DNA of 64,000 bases. Origin: Rutstroemia sp. NJR-2017a BVV2. Lineage: Eukaryota; Ascomycota; Leotiomycetes; Helotiales; Rutstroemiaceae. This document shows positions 7,402-16,671 of this stretch, one piece after another (position 1 is the stretch's first letter; each line of letters starts with the position of its first letter). The stretch covers positions 124,001 to 188,000 of the forward strand of contig NJPS01000008.1 in the NCBI GenBank assembly GCA_002946415.1, in the 5' to 3' direction. The notes beneath the pieces are model-generated. The model made no database searches. It saw only the letters and a list, made by a program, of their open reading frames with translations, and had not been told where the DNA came from. A program made the position numbers and the translations under genes.

Positions 7402-8542
7402 ATGCACGACCCTTTTCCTATCCCGCCGTCGCCCTGGCTCAGTAAGGCAGTACAGCCATTTGCCGATTACTGGTCATTACCTACATTACCTTTGCACATT
7501 CATGAAGTTCTTGGATCCTTCTTAGCCTACACATTTATCAATAAAGTTGTTGCGCCGACAGTTTCTAGACGCCTCTTCCCTAGTAAATATTCGAAATTCT
7601 CGCCTGAACGAAAGCTCAACTGGGACGTTCACGTTGTGTCATTATGCCAGAGCACTCTTATCAACGCTCTCGCGCTATGGGTTATGTTCAACGATGACGA
7701 ACGCAAGAACATGACAGCGCATGAGCGAGTTCATGGATATACTGGAGCCTCTGGAATGATCCAAGGTCTGGCAACAGGCTACTTCCTCTGGGATCTAATG
7801 ATCACCCTGCAGAACATCAAGGTCTTTGGTTTGGGAATGTTGGCACACGCAACAAGCGCTTTACTCGTCTTCTCTTTCGGTTTTGTAGGTATCCCCAGCC
7901 TCGGCAGATGGAACCCCCACTAACCATTCATTGCAGAGACCATTTGTCAACTTCTATGGCTGTACTTTCATTCTTTACGAGCTCTCCTCTCCTTTTCTGA
8001 ACTTCCACTGGTTCTTCGACAAACTCGATATGACCGGATCGAAGCCTCAACTATATAATGGAATTGCACTCCTCATCACATTCTTTAGCTGCCGTCTTGT
8101 TTGGGGAACTTATCAGTCAGTACGCGTATATCAAGACGTATGGAAGGCACTTCACAACGCACCCGTAACCTCTAAAATCAACATCGATAATCTCGCAAAT
8201 GGTAGCGCTTCAACACTTAGCGCAGCAGGAGGTCACAGCGCAGCACCGATTCACAACGACATCATGAAATATGCTGGCGAAGAGTTCGTTCCCCTCTGGT
8301 TGGCAATTACATACTTGGCTAGCAACCTTGTCTTGAACACTTTGAACTTCTACTGGTTTGGGAAGATGATTGAGGCGGTCAGGAAGAGGTTCCAACCACC
8401 TAAAGAAGCAAGAAACAAGGAAAAACCTGTTGCCATCAAGAGCACTGGTGCTGATGGTACAAAGAGCATCCATGTTGTCGATAGCGAGGTGCGCAAACGA
8501 AAGGGACCGGAAGACGAAGACTTTGTGGCCGCTGCACAATAG
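7402..8542 (+). CDS. TLC-domain multipass membrane protein
   Basis: Two exons, 7402-7884 and 7937-8542, separated by a 52-nt intron with a CTAAC branch site, encode 362 residues. The order of features is that of TRAM/LAG1/CLN8 (TLC) proteins of the TMEM56 type. There is an N-terminal membrane segment, an RKLNWDVHVVS motif, a GYFLWDLMI segment, a histidine in GMLAHATSALLVF, then NFYGCTFILYELSSPFLNFHWF and two further membrane helices. Such proteins sit in the ER or other endomembranes and have roles in lipid handling. The LAG1 ceramide-synthase double histidine is not evident, so ceramide synthesis is not claimed. The C-terminus is lysine-rich and cytosolic in character. Confidence 0.82.
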
Positions 8543-9498: not shown

Positions 9499-10852
9499 TT
9501 TCGATGTGGTGATGGATAAGAGGGATTGGAAGGGTTGGTTTGGTGCGAATGGGCTTTGGGGATGGGTTGGAAAAGTAGACAATGGCTTGAGGACTCGACG
9601 AACGGATGGGAAGAGCTCTTTAAAGAATAAATTTCTCGGAATGGGTTTTCTCAAGAATGCAAAGTCAATGGATAGAAAAGCTGGTATCTGAGGGTCCTTT
9701 TACGTAGATGAGGGACTGAGTATCGCACGAAGGATCCATGCAAGGTATGGTGGCACGGGTAGTAAGTAGGTGAAGGGTAAGCCGCAGGGTTGCAGGCTGT
9801 GTTCCCGTTTTGTGCATGTCCATTCACTCGGCTTTTGGCAGCGTCTAATTGGGGGAATTGGTCTAATTACACGATAATCTTAATGAAACCACTTGGATGT
9901 TGTAAGCTGAGCAGCTAATTTATATTCCATCGCAAAGTCTATTTTGGCTTGGTCGACATGCCGAGGTAGCGGAAGTTGATATGTCGTCGTGAGGTCGACG
10001 ACTGTAAACTAGAGGAAGACGCCTTGACGCAACATTCGGGGACCAGGTCGTTTGCTGGTAGGTTATGGTCTCACACTCCACCGCCGATTATACGGTTTGG
10101 TACCCACATGGCCCCATGGAGTAGTAGGTAAGCTTTTTGACGTGAAATTAAAGATTCACCGGTGGTTCGTTTTTATTCAGCTAAGGGATTTGGGAGTTGG
10201 AGCTTTTCCGGATAGGGAAATTTATAGACGGTTGCTGTGGCATGCTCGCTAACGTCTAAGGTAGACGGAAATTTGCGCAGTAAGGCTGAAAATACTGTGC
10301 CTCATCCTTCGACTGTTTCTGGTTTGTTTGAGTGGAGACGCGAGAGCGAGGTTAGTAAGTGCCAGCCAGATGGAAGGATTCTGACAGGTAGCTAGCCGGT
10401 GCTGTAGAATTTTAGGGGGATTCCGTTTGGAGTGTTTTGTAATCATCTTTTATAGGGGTTGCGACGCGGATGGAAAAATAAAGTATATATCTGCCTGTTT
10501 CATGGGGGACTTTCGAACGGCTTCGTGCTTCGTTGCTGGTAGCAGTATCATGATACTCGGAAAGTTGCTGCACTTCGTGTAATGATATGAATGTTTCAAA
10601 GCTGTTTTTGCATGGCACAGCAGTGCTCGGCATGGCTTCTTGTCGCATGGGATGCTCAGATTGAATCCACCTGTTTTACATACTGAAGCTATCTGATTAT
10701 GTAAGTATTTTCTGAGCTGACTGGGCTCAGGGGGTAATCTTAGCCGCTTGATACGAATTCTAGAAATAGGTATGCTGACAGATGCCTAACCTTGTGGACC
10801 GTTGTTGGGGGCTGGATGTGCATATGTTTCTTATTTAGAGTTGCTGACCATA
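9499..10852. other. Intergenic region left of the transposon-like island
   Basis: About 1.35 kb with no supportable gene. A short perfect hairpin (GTCGTCG at 9983-9989, CGACGAC at 9996-10002) is the only structure noticed. Confidence 0.45.
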
Positions 10853-10951
10853 CAGTGGGCTTCGATTGCGGTATCCTCTTTCCACACTATCTTCAAGTTT
10901 ATATACTCTCTTGTGCACTAAACTTAATACAGTTAGTCTGAATGTTTGTCA
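10853..10951 (+). repeat. Left terminal inverted repeat of the HET-ankyrin element
   Basis: This repeat matches the reverse complement of 14082-14188. The first 20 bases are identical. Similarity then continues through CTTCAAGTTT and, after an AT-rich length difference, through GCACTA, CTTAATAC and GTTAGTCT. It ends at GTCA, about 120 bp before the HET-gene ATG, so it may also serve as that gene's promoter; TATATA occurs within it. Confidence 0.75.
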
Positions 10952-11074
10952 TCAATATGGCTTAAGGATTCCCTGGGAAATGGAGCTTACCGAGTACCAT
11001 CAACTAACTTCAACTCTCACAACTACATGAGATATCTCTCTATATATCTCAGTTCTGACTTCAAAGCACTAAAA

Positions 11075-12931
11075 ATGACGAACTTCGAGTATAAGCCAAT
11101 CAGTCTTAAAGGTCCTGCCTTTCGCCTTCTCCGAGTGCTCAAAGGCCTTGACGACGACCCTATTCAGTGTCAGCTTTTTGAGTCAAAGATCCCCTCATCA
11201 GAAGATTATGCGGCTTTATCTTATACATGGGGCAGCACATCTAGACCATGTGATTTAATTATCAATGGCAACAAAATGACAGTCACCAAAAATGTATATC
11301 TTGCACTTCGGGATATCCGTTGCCGAGAAAAAGACCAGGTTCTTTGGGTTGATGCCCTTTCTATCAATCAAAGCGATAAGAATGAACAAGGACAACACGT
11401 TCAGCAGATGGGATCTATTTATAGCAAGGCTGAACGAGTAATCATCTGGTTAGGCGAGGCTACATATGATACAGACTATGTTATGTATTATATGAAGCGG
11501 CTAGAGGAAGAGAGTGTTAAATACGCCCCTAATGACCAGCACCGCCAGGAAATTCCATATAAACAGTGGGTCGATATTTGGTCAGCAGTAATCCGCGATC
11601 TGAGACCTGACCAGAGGGGCCTTTTGGTCGAAGGCCTACAATTGCTCCTTAATCGTAACTGGTTTAAGAGAGTCTGGGTTATACAAGAAACTGGTAATGC
11701 GCGAGCTGCTGATATTGTTTGCGGTAGCAAATCTGTTTCAGCAAGCATCTTCGCTCTTATACCATCTCTACTAGAGGTCACCCCAGACCTGCACTGCCAA
11801 TCTATCATTGATATCATGCCAGGTTCTCTCCGAGATAGCTCATGGTGGTCTAAAAAGCGGGATCTTTATACAATGCTGGGTAAATTCCGCAACAGCGAAG
11901 CGACTGACCCCCGAGATAAAATTTATGCCTTACTAGGTATATCTTTAGATACATATGATACTGATCTTCTAAAAGCGGACTATGGAAAGGATCTTCAAGA
12001 TGTTGTTTTCAAAACTGTTTCATTTTTGCTTAACTTCCATAAGTTCAATACTCGCCGTTTCTTCGACTGGACATTGCCAGAGTTCTTAGGAAAATTAGAT
12101 AAACTTCCTGTTGAAGTACTTAAGTGCGCAATGGATACTGGACACAAGTGGGCTTTACAGGAGGGCCATGAGGCAATCGTGAAGTTGCTGCTCGAGAAAG
12201 GCGCAGAGCTCGAGACCAAGAGTACCTCTGGTCAGACACCGCTATCATGGGCTGCAGGGAATGGGAACGAGGCGATCGTAAAGCTACTACTCGAGAAAGG
12301 CGCAGAGCTCGAAGCTAAAGATTCTTTTTATAGTCGGACACCGCTATTATGGGCTACAGGGTATGGGCATGAGGTGGTTGTAAAGCTGCTACTCGAGAAA
12401 GGCGCAGAGATCGAGACTAAGAGTACCTCTGGTCGGACACCGCTATTAGTGGCTGCAGAGTATGGGCGCGAGGCGGTTGTAAAGCTACTACTCGAGAAAG
12501 GTGCAAAGCTCGAAACTAAAGATTTATATGGTCGGACACCGCTATCATTGGCTGCAGGGTTTGGGCATGAGGTGGTTGTAAAGCTACTACTCGAGAAAGG
12601 CGCAGAGATCGAGACCAAGAATACCTCTGGTCGGACACCGCTATCATTGGCTGCAGAGTATGGGAACGAAGCAGTCGTAAAGCTGTTACTCGAGAAAGGC
12701 GCAGAGATCGAGACCAAGAGTATCTCTGGTCGGACACCGCTATCATTGGCTGCAGAGTATGGGAACGAAGCAGTCGTAAAGCTGTTACTCGAGAAAGGCG
12801 CAGAGATCGAGACCAAGAGTATCTCTGGTCGGACACCGCTATCATTGGCTGCAGAGTATAGGCGCGAGGCAGTCGTGGAGTTGCTACTTGAAACACGGAA
12901 GAAACGAAAAATGGAAAGAGAGTTAAATTAA
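11075..12931 (+). CDS. HET-domain protein with C-terminal ankyrin repeats
   Basis: Single exon, 618 residues from the ATG at 11075 (context AAAAATGAC). An in-frame ATG-like start at 10946 lies inside the terminal repeat and was not used. Residues about 45-225 form a full HET domain: ALSYTWG, LWVDALSINQ, MGSIYSKAERVIIWLGE and the later NWFKRVWVIQE. A helical DPRDKIYALLG section follows. From residue 366 there are seven 33-34-residue ankyrin repeats with the core VVKLLLEKGAE and RTPLSLAA, plus a broken eighth. HET domains trigger incompatibility cell death in filamentous fungi, and the repeats probably sense a partner. No NACHT or NB-ARC domain lies between them. The last residues (TRKKRKMERELN) leave the ankyrin pattern and look like part of the transposase-like tail that follows. 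Confidence 0.88.
   Translation: MTNFEYKPISLKGPAFRLLRVLKGLDDDPIQCQLFESKIPSSEDYAALSYTWGSTSRPCDLIINGNKMTVTKNVYLALRDIRCREKDQVLWVDALSINQSDKNEQGQHVQQMGSIYSKAERVIIWLGEATYDTDYVMYYMKRLEEESVKYAPNDQHRQEIPYKQWVDIWSAVIRDLRPDQRGLLVEGLQLLLNRNWFKRVWVIQETGNARAADIVCGSKSVSASIFALIPSLLEVTPDLHCQSIIDIMPGSLRDSSWWSKKRDLYTMLGKFRNSEATDPRDKIYALLGISLDTYDTDLLKADYGKDLQDVVFKTVSFLLNFHKFNTRRFFDWTLPEFLGKLDKLPVEVLKCAMDTGHKWALQEGHEAIVKLLLEKGAELETKSTSGQTPLSWAAGNGNEAIVKLLLEKGAELEAKDSFYSRTPLLWATGYGHEVVVKLLLEKGAEIETKSTSGRTPLLVAAEYGREAVVKLLLEKGAKLETKDLYGRTPLSLAAGFGHEVVVKLLLEKGAEIETKNTSGRTPLSLAAEYGNEAVVKLLLEKGAEIETKSISGRTPLSLAAEYGNEAVVKLLLEKGAEIETKSISGRTPLSLAAEYRREAVVELLLETRKKRKMERELN
12170..12890 (+). repeat. Tandem 99-bp ankyrin-coding repeats
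   Basis: Units start at 12170, 12269 (102 bp), 12371, 12470, 12569, 12668 and 12767, with a truncated eighth at 12866. Units six and seven differ at only three of 99 bases, all at the end. Variation is concentrated at the beta-hairpin codons (KSTSG, KDLYG, KNTSG, KSISG) and at the repeat ends (GNGN, GYGH, EYGR). This indicates recent unit duplication. Confidence 0.88.
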
Positions 12932-12934
12932 AGG

Positions 12935-13125
12935 GAGGATTTGTATTTAGTATAGAGGAAGTGTTGAAAATCGTCAGGGAGGCTGAATGGACCTCTGCAT
13001 CTAAACAACGACGTGGTAGACCCCCTAAGCGTCCAATTGCTGAGATAGAGCAAGAGATTAAAGAGGAAGAGGATAGTGATGATTCGGTAGGATCGGTAAT
13101 AGTTGTGGAGTATTCTGTAGCATAA
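12935..13125 (+). pseudogene. Transposase C-terminal tail remnant (AT-hook)
   Basis: After the HET-gene stop, another frame reads KGGFVFSIEEVLKIV, then a spacer, RRGRPPKRPIAEIEQEI, and an acidic end that stops at 13123-13125. The RGRPPKR core is an AT-hook. A basic MEREL region followed by GGF and an AT-hook resembles the tails of fungal pogo-type transposases, from memory of the family rather than a search. The HET reading frame is continuous with the first part of this tail, and a single missing base would explain the stop. It may instead be an unrelated AT-hook fragment. Confidence 0.4.
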
Positions 13126-14081
13126 AAATTGAGATCGAATACAGAAGTGTAGTTTTAGTGACCCATATCCCCATATGACCCACTTCTGAGTACATCACGT
13201 TGTATTATAAAACATTAATTACTCATACTTATTTATCTTCATTTAACTGGGCCAGAAGAGAGGTCTAGGGAAGCCCATGGTTTTATACCTTTGTATTCCC
13301 ACGGCCGTGATCGTATATTAAATTCTAGAAGATTCGAGAAACATCGAATATTCTCTCTTCGTTCAGGAGCAATTGTAACATGATAACTAAACATTGCCAT
13401 AGGCGACGAGAATAAGAATTCGTTTTGTCTACACAACAGACCAAACTTGCAAACCTGCTTGTATACCTGATGGTAGGTAAGGGGTAATGTATAATTTGAC
13501 TTGTTAGAATCTTTATATCATGGAGGTGTGATTGCCCAACTTGAAGGGGCACAAATTTGTTATGTTGCTAAACGCTATAGAACAAATCTTTTGTCTCAGT
13601 TCCAATAGAAGCTGGAGTACGTGACGCTTTTGGTTGCATTGTACAGAACCCGATGGTGTGTCCGAGCCTGTATTATATTAGTAATATATATATGGTAGTT
13701 GAGAATTTGTCTTACATTGCTGTAGTAGCCTATGTTGTGTTAGAAGAAATGAAAGCTGTAAATGGAAGTCTGTCGAATTAGCTATAATGCAATTGCAATA
13801 CTTCCAGATCTGTAAGGAAGACTCTCGTACGGCCACTGCCGTACGAAATACGACAGTGCGGAAAATAGCTAATGTGCTCTGTGCTCATAATCACTTTCGG
13901 TGAAAGTGAGGAAGCCGATTTTGCAAGTGACTGTAAAGCAACTTGCGACTTCGCAAGATATGCTGCCAATCTGAGGTGCTAATTGCTGTTGAACAGGACG
14001 CATTGTTGTCGTTGATAAGGTTAGCACAAAAGTCTCAACTCGATATGCCAAAAGCAGCAACTCGCACTCTGAGGCTACATA

Positions 14082-14188
14082 TGACAAAACGTGTAGACTA
14101 ACCGTATTAAGCCTAGTGCTGACTAAGTGTGGCTTATACAAAACTTGAAGACAGTATGGGAAGAGGACACCGCAATCGAAGCCCACTG
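14082..14188 (-). repeat. Right terminal inverted repeat of the HET-ankyrin element
   Basis: Inverted copy of 10853-10951, ending in GCCCACTG followed by TA. Most differences from the left copy are C/T or G/A transitions, and three of the first four fall where one copy has CpA and the other TpA. Confidence 0.75.
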
Positions 14189-14976
14189 TATCAATACGAT
14201 TACTTCGCTTGCATTAATAGCTTTGATGCCAAAAAGGACGTCTAGCCATGACCACCTTGGAGTGCGCTTCCGTTCGCCCATTGCTCAGGATTCATCTGAA
14301 AATATACTCTACACTACCGACAGCTTCGTACTCGACGAGAGTAAATCTGACGGCAGCTTCTGTGAATGAGTGTCATATAATAAAGAGGTAATAAAAGGGT
14401 CCATGAAAATAATTAATAGCCTCTGAATCACCCAGGTTCCTGAGCAAAGTCATAAGTAGAGACTTATCCGAACCCCTGTGTAGACAGATCTGCCCGGAAA
14501 TTGTGGGGAAAACTTTATTTCTTGGACTTGATGTGATCACCAACACCAAGAATGGGTTTTTAGATTCTACCGGTTCAACCACATACACTCTCTTTCATGA
14601 ATTGGCCCTCTGTCGTTTTCTAGGGGTGATAGATCTCGGATTTCGCGACGGACTGTTTTGTAGGGGCACAATTGGAGCAACGTTTCTCCCTATGAGATTG
14701 CTTATCATCCTTGCCAACATTGCTTCTGACGACCCCGCGAAAGTTGGTACGCGATCCATGGACGTCCGAAAGAATTAGAGGACTTGGTTCGGATTCCCTG
14801 TGAGGTAGTGTCGGCTTGTGTTCTAGAGGATGAGAAGCATGAGACTACCCTCGCAGAGGCCATGGTCTCTGGCGGATTCTTATGGTAAGTTGGAAAACTG
14901 TATGTTGGTCTCTAATGAACGCACTAACAACCATTTCGCATTCGCAGGCTTCATCTTTACGTTCCTCGGTAGATCT

Positions 14977-16671
14977 ATGTCCAAGAGGGCCCCAGCTCTT
15001 CAATATCATGTCACCAAATCCTGCGAACGAGCATTCAGTACTACGTATGCGCCTTCGAGACATTGCATCAGAAATTACAGACCAAGCAAACAAACATTGA
15101 TATCCCAAGAAAACCAACGAAGATGGTTCCACGATTATTTCACAACCCATCTGCCATCATCATCGCTGCATCCAGATTCTAGATCTATGGGTCCCCATCA
15201 CAAACTTCCGCGATCAGCCTCAACGCCACATACACCGGGATCCAACCGTTCGCCCGCGGCAGCACCGCCGATGATCGGCACATCCCGCGAGCTTACGGTT
15301 GTTCGAATACCTCTGCGAAGTGCGAAGCATCATTTCGGAGTCTCTGTCTCTCGCGGTACAAGATCATACAATGAAGATACATATCAAGCCGGGACATTGG
15401 AAATACCTGCATTTGCGAAGCGAGCACCTGTCAGTCTAAGTAGATCGGGTGCTAAGGCAAACGCAGGAGGCGCTACATCGGCGGATAGTGCGAGTGGAGA
15501 TCCGCAAGTGTTCTATTTTGGAGTTTTCGATGGGCATGGAGGAAATGAGTGCAGTGACTTTTTGAGGGAGGAATTACACAACTATGTCGAATCGGCAGCG
15601 GGGAGCTTTGAGCTGCCATCCAGTTTGAAGAAGAGACGGAAGGACGGCGATAGCAATGAGCCGGTTTCTGGGGAGAGTGAAGGCCAAGATGACGCGGCGA
15701 GTACATCCGCACCATCTGGTAGAGCCAAAGCTATTGAATTGGAAAAGTCACTCATTGCGGAATGGAAGACTACGGTTGGGGGCTATTTCCGACGGTTCAA
15801 ACCGGAATATTTTGAGCATCTCTCTTCTGCAAAGGATGATTCATCGAGCAAACCCATATCGATTGAAACCGTATTAATGTACGCTTTCCTCAAAGCAGAT
15901 CTTGATTTCATCTCAGCGCAAGCTCGAAAACCCGACGCAAATGATACCAACACCGACAAACCCTTGAATGCAGACGACATACTCGGGGAACCGGCTCACA
16001 GGGCAACTAAAGATCGCATTGGCGGACCTACACGTTTTGCTGGGGGTTCTACTGCTTCTGTGGCTATGATATCTACGCCTTCACCCACACCTTTCTGGCA
16101 TCCTGCCTCACCTTCGGCATTAGTTGTCGCCCATGTAGGCGATACTCGTATTCTACTCTGCGAGACTGTGACGGGCTTGGCTAAACCAATGACGACGAAT
16201 CATCATCCTAGTTCGCCAATTGAAGGTGGAAGACTACGAAGATATGCCGCAACATTTGTCACTGACTCATTTGGCGAAGAGCGCATGTCTGGGCTAGCAA
16301 ATACAAGGGCCTTTGGCGACATGCGCTCCAAGAGAATTGGTGTTTCTGCGGAGCCGGAAATAAGGCGCATAGAAATAGGCCCTGCGGAATACAGTTTCAT
16401 GGTTTTGGTTTCCGACGGTGTTAGTGGGACGCTCAGCGATCAGGAGATCGTGGATGTAGTGAAGGAAGCAAAGACTCCAGAACAGGGCGCACAGGATGTT
16501 GTGAGCTTTGCTACAGAAATAAGCAGAGAAGGTGATAATGCGACATGCTTAGTTGTGAGGCTCGGCGGTTGGGAAAGGAGAATGGAAGGCGGAATGGGAA
16601 GTATGGGCACGAAAGAAGTTAGGGACTATAAAAAGCGCGATGCAATGGACCCACGAAGAGGCAGGACGTAG
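14977..16671 (+). CDS. PP2C-type serine/threonine phosphatase, probably mitochondrial
   Basis: 564 residues from the ATG at 14977. The N-terminus (MSKRAPALQYHVTKSCERA, then arginine-rich) looks like a mitochondrial targeting peptide. PP2C motifs appear in order: SRGTRSYNED at about 125, FGVFDGHGG at about 184, a long charged insert, ASVAMIS, VAHVGDTRILL at about 385, LANTRAFGD, VLVSDGVSG and GDNATCLVV. They supply the metal-binding aspartates. The layout resembles yeast Ptc6, a mitochondrial PP2C linked to mitophagy, but the match is by pattern only. A well-formed 63-nt intron (14885-14947) lies just upstream. It is a multiple of three without a stop, so an earlier start at 14830 would give 592 residues when spliced. 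Confidence 0.85.
   Translation: MSKRAPALQYHVTKSCERAFSTTYAPSRHCIRNYRPSKQTLISQENQRRWFHDYFTTHLPSSSLHPDSRSMGPHHKLPRSASTPHTPGSNRSPAAAPPMIGTSRELTVVRIPLRSAKHHFGVSVSRGTRSYNEDTYQAGTLEIPAFAKRAPVSLSRSGAKANAGGATSADSASGDPQVFYFGVFDGHGGNECSDFLREELHNYVESAAGSFELPSSLKKRRKDGDSNEPVSGESEGQDDAASTSAPSGRAKAIELEKSLIAEWKTTVGGYFRRFKPEYFEHLSSAKDDSSSKPISIETVLMYAFLKADLDFISAQARKPDANDTNTDKPLNADDILGEPAHRATKDRIGGPTRFAGGSTASVAMISTPSPTPFWHPASPSALVVAHVGDTRILLCETVTGLAKPMTTNHHPSSPIEGGRLRRYAATFVTDSFGEERMSGLANTRAFGDMRSKRIGVSAEPEIRRIEIGPAEYSFMVLVSDGVSGTLSDQEIVDVVKEAKTPEQGAQDVVSFATEISREGDNATCLVVRLGGWERRMEGGMGSMGTKEVRDYKKRDAMDPRRGRT

Follow-up and report, generated by a model that had tools for sequence, protein, structure and literature searches.

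In the 64,000-nucleotide window analysed here, taken from contig NJPS01000008.1 of the fungus Rutstroemia sp. NJR-2017a BVV2, positions 10853-14188 form a 3,336-bp unit with inverted repeats of about 100 bp on both sides, whose tips start CAGTGGGCTTCG. We interpret this unit as a non-autonomous transposon of the Tc1/mariner type, inserted at TA, with CAGTGGG ends and one intact HET-ankyrin gene as a passenger, and give this interpretation a probability of about 0.68. The gene may have been captured, the window copy may have transposed in the past, and allorecognition genes could be spread by such events; the element itself is probably inactive at present. The original prediction, made from the sequence alone, had taken the gene for cargo of a pogo/Tc1-mariner element that might spread incompatibility-type genes. 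A non-autonomous element with this cargo is supported by a family of TA-flanked ends, by a breakpoint at one of them on another contig (C23) and by the intactness of the gene. The pogo assignment and the spread are not.

The unit lies between genes at 7931-8542 and 14830-16671 and comprises the following features.

10851-10852, no strand: left TA, presumed copy of the target site, read directly (ATA at 10850-10852).
10853-10952, plus strand: left terminal inverted repeat, L type, 81% identical to the right end over 100 bp, matched by the end model at 10850-10950.
11075-12931, plus strand: intact HET-ankyrin gene, 618 amino acids, from the open reading frame (ORF) and its HET and Ank domain hits.
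12170-12888, plus strand: ankyrin array, 99-bp unit in 7.2 copies (Tandem Repeats Finder).
12892-13125, plus strand: probably what remains of the 3' end of a pogo-type transposase, a frame read after the point (12891) where ankyrin similarity stops and named provisionally, no homologue having been found.
13155-13204, plus strand: a further 50-bp sequence resembling an end, probably the tail's own terminus, 84% identical to a sequence on contig C69 and with an ACGTGA tip as in the element at locus L054.
14081-14188, minus strand: terminal inverted repeat of the right side (R type), carrying the AAGCCACACTTNGYCAGCACTAG motif, 78% identical over 92 bp to single ends on contigs C21 and C23.
14189-14190, no strand: right TA, read directly.

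The inverted repeats with their TA are far above what chance would produce. BLAST aligned 10853-10952 with 14081-14188 in inverted orientation at 81% over about 100 bp, and the outermost arms (10850-10900 and 14141-14191) are 51 nt long and 92% complementary. The tips agree in all of the first 20 bases and in 44 of the first 48, as had been described. The alignment of the two ends scored 110, against a best score of 28 among 3000 random pairs taken at equal spacing from the window DNA. This control left out 441 draws near the element; without that exclusion one draw reached 104, which we take to overlap the ends themselves. Outside each end stands TA, in fact ATA, and the same ATA lies outward of all four ends found in the genome. 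The two ends of the window are of unequal types, the left one (L type) being without the inner motif that the right one (R type) carries.

The gene between the repeats is complete, as originally reported: its 618 codons lie in a single frame and encode a HET domain (E=4.5e-32, residues 45-205) followed by ankyrin repeats (Ank, E=4e-60), the latter in an array with 84% matches between copies. A HET domain with highly alike C-terminal repeats corresponds to the architecture of HET-domain repeat receptors, and the gene may act in non-self recognition. A protein of the same strain (P0001) is 99% identical to the window protein, differing at its annotated ends. Protein P0002 of Rutstroemia BBW matches 319 of the first 350 residues and ends differently. 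The closest paralogue, on contig C53, is similar only over 11051-12891 (72% in the HET part), so that similarity stops near the coding ends, and a scan with the end model found no such terminal repeats there. This paralogue is one frame of 1281 amino acids (L028 2107-5952, C53:59106-62951), in which the HET-ankyrin part begins about 580 residues in, behind a different N-terminal part. Against it, the ratio of nonsynonymous to synonymous substitution rates was 0.51 over 306 codons, which offers weak evidence of constraint on the window gene. The composite index of repeat-induced point mutation (RIP) is -0.16 in the element and -0.52 and -0.62 in the flanks, and the gene has no stop codons; we draw no claim about RIP from this difference.

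The ends recur elsewhere in the assembly (43.4 Mb in 79 contigs). A DNA search with the C21 end missed both window ends. Since DNA similarity searches thus miss true relatives, we used patterns that allow mismatches. The pattern TACAGTRGGCTTCRATTKCGGT, with up to 3 mismatches, gave five matches (four exact, one with 3 mismatches) and none in its reversed control. The exact sites are the two window ends, C21:8168 and C23:516723. The inner motif matched three times, at the right window end, on C21 and on C23, and its control not at all; an earlier 20-base pattern had given 7 matches versus 2 in its control. All these counts are possibly lower bounds. To judge from the pattern matches, the end family at this stringency has four members: the window pair and two ends that stand alone. 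The latter, on C21 and C23, agree with each other at 93% over 105 bp and diverge beyond, as expected for one kind of end around different contents; over 92 bp, each is about 78% identical to the right end of the window unit. Further copies with the same ends and TA, which had been named as support, are seen in part: two TA-adjacent single ends exist, and the whole unit was seen once. No exact match to the end pattern occurs in viral contigs. Nor did we accept any inverted repeats at other HET/ankyrin loci, having scanned 8 of 12 such loci plus the C69 site (L039), with L030 and L031 judged by their five longest pairs. The only pair of high identity that spans a gene, the 58-nt arms around an ankyrin array on contig C48 (L031 2121-2178 and 8906-8963, 90% alike), was dismissed because each arm, on reading, is itself nearly palindromic and the pair looks like a short repeat present twice.

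A possible trace of mobility is a breakpoint at the C23 end. DNA outside this end recurs within C69:62000-69936 (locus L039), in four pieces with 87-95% identity and about 4 kb in total. The duplicated segment covers L039 1-3994 (C69:62000-65993) and L043 4918-9068 on C23, and one of its sides ends at the tip of the C23 element. Of the last 60 outer bases at the junction, 57 agree; identity continues through TACAGTA and is then lost, the similarity stopping at ATACAGTA, where C69 continues with unrelated DNA. The junctions read AAAAAAA-TA-CAG-TA-ACTACT on C69 and AAAAAAA-TA-CAGTAGGCTTC on C23. The TA-CAG-TA of C69 looks like a Tc1/mariner excision footprint repaired by end-joining, with three end bases between two TA, as the end sequence itself would lead one to expect; the Sleeping Beauty footprint is TAC(A/T)GTA, whereas a literature passage prints TAG(T/A)CTA. 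Sleeping Beauty insertions read TA-cagttgaag in the available part of the source (PMC3271037). On the far side of the C69 site we noticed, by reading and with no domain call, a hybrid histidine kinase gene.

Several observations weigh against the transposon interpretation. Beyond the C69 junction, the far flank is single-copy in the genome and absent from the C23 DNA compared; C69 therefore does not qualify as a clean empty site, and the break may lie inside the repeat. A DNA search with the whole unit returned 26 rows, and the only complete unit among them was the query itself; the other rows are mostly the HET/ankyrin coding part, matches between the two ends and, on C69, a match of 50 bp. 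Inward scans found no partner end over about 25 kb from the C21 end (L042, L044, L045) or over about 12 kb from the C23 end (L043 with L047). A transposase with matching ends is missing among the five elements that we opened and at least two scanned places (L043 and L045). Between the two ends of the unit, 26 of 109 aligned positions differ and a further 15 columns are gaps, which makes the unit old. Being palindromic, TA might itself form part of the repeat, and no empty site of the window copy shows a single-TA target. Finally, the gene has many relatives in Helotiales and in metagenomes (7843 scored matches), with no sign that they stand between such ends.

The partner scans were run with the full end model over 38,941 and 25,905 bases. 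True ends score 104-105 bits in this model; the best other scores were 5.5 bits in the first scan and 8.0 bits in the second (E 0.077, at the transposase locus L048), with 5.4 bits for L047. Further inward, C21 and C23 share another repeat (L043 134-813 and L044 4764-5598, 88-93% identical) that overlaps a decayed DDE_3 match on C23. We did not take it for a part of one element, as its direction relative to the ends is reversed. The assembly holds no empty allele either, the left flank of the window copy occurring once.

If the unit is a transposon, it would have lost its own transposase or never had one. A transposase supplied from elsewhere would bind the ends of about 100 bp and cut at the border between TA and CAGT, so that the gene and its short promoter region would move as one cassette. 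Before or after the capture, the gene's 3' end would have become fused with the tail of a pogo relic of separate origin.

Another finding that had been named as support, a full-length transposase elsewhere in the genome whose ends match, was not made among the places inspected. The candidates were 49 DDE_1 and DDE_3 rows, some of them naming the same place, and few were opened. All five opened elements have other ends, the one at L051 sharing only CAGTGGG with the window ends. The elements at L048 2046-3314 and L049 1991-3319 (DDE_3) and at L054 208-2062 (DDE_1) measure 1.3-1.9 kb, have one long transposase ORF and well-matched inverted ends, and are possibly still intact transposons of this strain. 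We also noted short units resembling miniature inverted-repeat transposable elements, one at L048 (1446-1479 and 1641-1674) with perfect ends of 34 nt, another at L030 (1960-1988 and 2361-2389) with 29-nt ends that are 97% alike.

The alternative that survives best is that the gene was never cargo: two single ends would have landed, or been left by deletions, in opposite orientations around a resident HET-ankyrin gene. Single ends do exist, since those of C21 and C23 have no partner in the DNA searched. The unequal types of the window ends, with no inner motif on the left, fit this history, and so does the C53 paralogue, which has no such ends and whose similarity to the window gene stops near the coding ends. 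Yet with only four ends found in 43.4 Mb, it is very unlikely that two should meet by chance within 3.3 kb, opposed and with TA outward, and we thus regard this origin as unlikely overall.

The second alternative, that of the original prediction, is a true pogo element in which the HET-ankyrin gene took the place of the element's transposase and left only the transposase tail. There is indeed a tail frame after the ankyrin array, at 12901-13122 with its stop at 13123-13125, inside the unit and reading toward the right end, and we presume that it resembles the basic plus acidic C terminus of a transposase. The frame described earlier as transposase-tail-like is thus present, and no search tied it to a transposase. 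It matched no Pfam family at E 1, had one other match in this genome (E 0.058, not convincing), and none of 20 candidates from a large protein set gave a score. In a comparison with the ORFs of seven loci, no score exceeded the highest among 200 shuffles; L054 reached about the 95% level, as did one ORF of L044. A DDE_1 transposase of its own was also sought between the ends, and the two frames scanned contain no DDE family.

What follows the tail argues for a different origin. The 50-bp sequence at 13155-13204, some 30 bp past the tail stop, recurs at C69:66018-66067 with 84% identity and, from its outer end, starts ACGTGATG; the bases before this tip are CA in the window and TA on C69. The pogo-type DDE_1 element L054, on contig C12, has an ORF of 548 amino acids and 63-nt ends and begins TA-ACGTGA, a tip that the window copy matches over 7 bases and the C69 copy over 8. 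Over its whole length the 50-bp sequence reaches about the 95% shuffle level against the L054 end, which is not significant, and the reverse orientation scores equally. A second terminus-like sequence with a pogo-like tip, placed close behind the tail, where an end would be expected, and nearly 0.9 kb short of the right end, makes the tail more likely a relic of another element than a remnant of the unit's own lost transposase. The tail and the 50-bp end probably represent a relic of a separate, pogo-type element joined to the end of the ankyrin gene. This relic appears to have replaced the original gene end, since ankyrin similarity ends at 12891 and the BBW protein ends differently. The CAGTGGG tip, moreover, is the one given for the impala-type mimp ends. 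Membership of the unit in the pogo group is accordingly not supported, and we find the replacement scenario improbable.

Marginally less credible still is that the repeats belong to another class of element with terminal inverted repeats (e.g., of hAT or Mutator type) with a fortuitous TA, for although ends of about 100 bp are long for Tc1/mariner and the 8-bp flanks (TGACCATA and TATCAATA) match at 5 of 8 positions, ATA stands outside four of four ends, no 9-bp duplication was seen on reading the flanks of both ends, the C69 site reads TA-CAG-TA, and Tc1/mariner ends of up to 169 bp are cited in the available part of PMC12506042.

The surroundings of the single ends raise a broader possibility. 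About 1 kb inward of the C21 end lies a WD40 frame (L042 5777-6361), followed by a 760-amino-acid HET-NACHT ORF (L042 6606-8888); both read toward the end, in the same orientation as the window gene. Since the two parts occupy separate frames, an intron may interrupt the C21 gene, or it may have decayed. Neither of two ORFs scanned on the inner side of the C23 end had a Pfam family. Elements of Rutstroemia with CAGTRGG ends could repeatedly capture genes of the HET or NOD-like receptor (NLR) type, here HET-ankyrin and on C21 HET-NACHT-WD40, in both cases with the gene's 3' end facing the R-type end, and transpose them in the form of small cassettes. We regard this as a doubtful suggestion. The HET family search gave 247 candidates, of which 150 were scored and all 150 matched, some on duplicated contigs. 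By hand estimate, 247 genes with 5 kb each make up about 3% of the genome, so one HET hit among two single ends can be chance. If true, repeated capture would scatter and reshuffle non-self-recognition genes by ordinary cut-and-paste transposition.

A 496-amino-acid ORF on C21 (L042 3073-4563), which starts about 100 bp outside the C21 end, has zinc-knuckle-like motifs by reading and no Pfam family at E 0.01; it resembles the first ORF of a long interspersed nuclear element. Identical HET scores, some with identical coordinates, were seen between contigs C25 and C74, C56 and C71, and C8 and C37, and at two places of C4; parts of the assembly thus seem to be present twice.

The original prediction knew of no described system of this form. 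A close one is ToxTA (formerly ToxhAT) of Bipolaris, Pyrenophora and Parastagonospora, as described in the available parts of PMC6737239 and PMC12506042, and the comparisons that follow likewise rest on excerpts of the papers cited. ToxTA is 14.3 kb long, holds eight genes including ToxA, has 74-bp inverted ends that are about 92% alike, duplicates TA and is assigned to Tc1/mariner (PMC6737239, PMC12506042). Like the window unit as we interpret it, it is a non-autonomous fungal element with long inverted ends, TA and no firmly linked transposase. Its cargo includes a patatin-TPR protein of the NLR kind, where the window has its HET-ankyrin gene. The window unit, in contrast, is 3.3 kb long with one complete gene, and it has neither the observed transposition nor the empty sites of ToxTA. 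The likeness is one of description; a text search of PMC6737239 gave no CAGT. By analogy, the unit may be seen as a one-gene ToxTA, the nearest described system that we found.

Other systems share single aspects. The impala/mimp elements of Fusarium (Tc1) have in mimp the CAGTGGG tip, searched as CAGTGGG.GCAA[TA]AA (PMC6131394), and a non-autonomous form that is mobilised by a transposase whose ends are similar (PMC3599309, PMC6131394). The mimp elements differ in their ends of about 27 bp, their size of 200-220 bp without coding capacity and their sequence after CAGTGGG (PMC3599309, PMC6131394). Starships, whose accessory genes include NLR genes, are huge and have a tyrosine recombinase (PMC12506042), whereas the one long ORF of the 3.3-kb unit is the HET-ankyrin gene; no tyrosine recombinase was seen among its ORFs, no search having been aimed at recombinases. 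The HNWD genes het-d, het-e and het-r of Podospora likewise combine a HET effector with a sensor of highly alike repeats (PMC1805685, PMC12222747). The C21 neighbour has HET, NACHT and WD40 in the HNWD order, while the window gene differs in having ankyrin repeats and no NACHT. The Podospora pseudogene NWDp3 is preceded by a relic of a transposable element, and the available parts of these sources describe no HNWD gene between transposon ends (PMC1805685, PMC12222747). In a literature search of limited depth, we recognised no paper in which Tc1/mariner ends enclose a single HET gene.

Related fungi differ strongly in their repertoires of incompatibility genes, and to our knowledge little is established about how these genes relocate. 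If our interpretation is correct, a single HET gene within cut-and-paste ends would provide a simple route of relocation, one that would leave presence/absence differences with an empty site at TA. Genes of non-self recognition would then join the cargo that gains from movement, as proposed for the accessory genes of Starships (in the available part of PMC12506042) and as seen in ToxTA.

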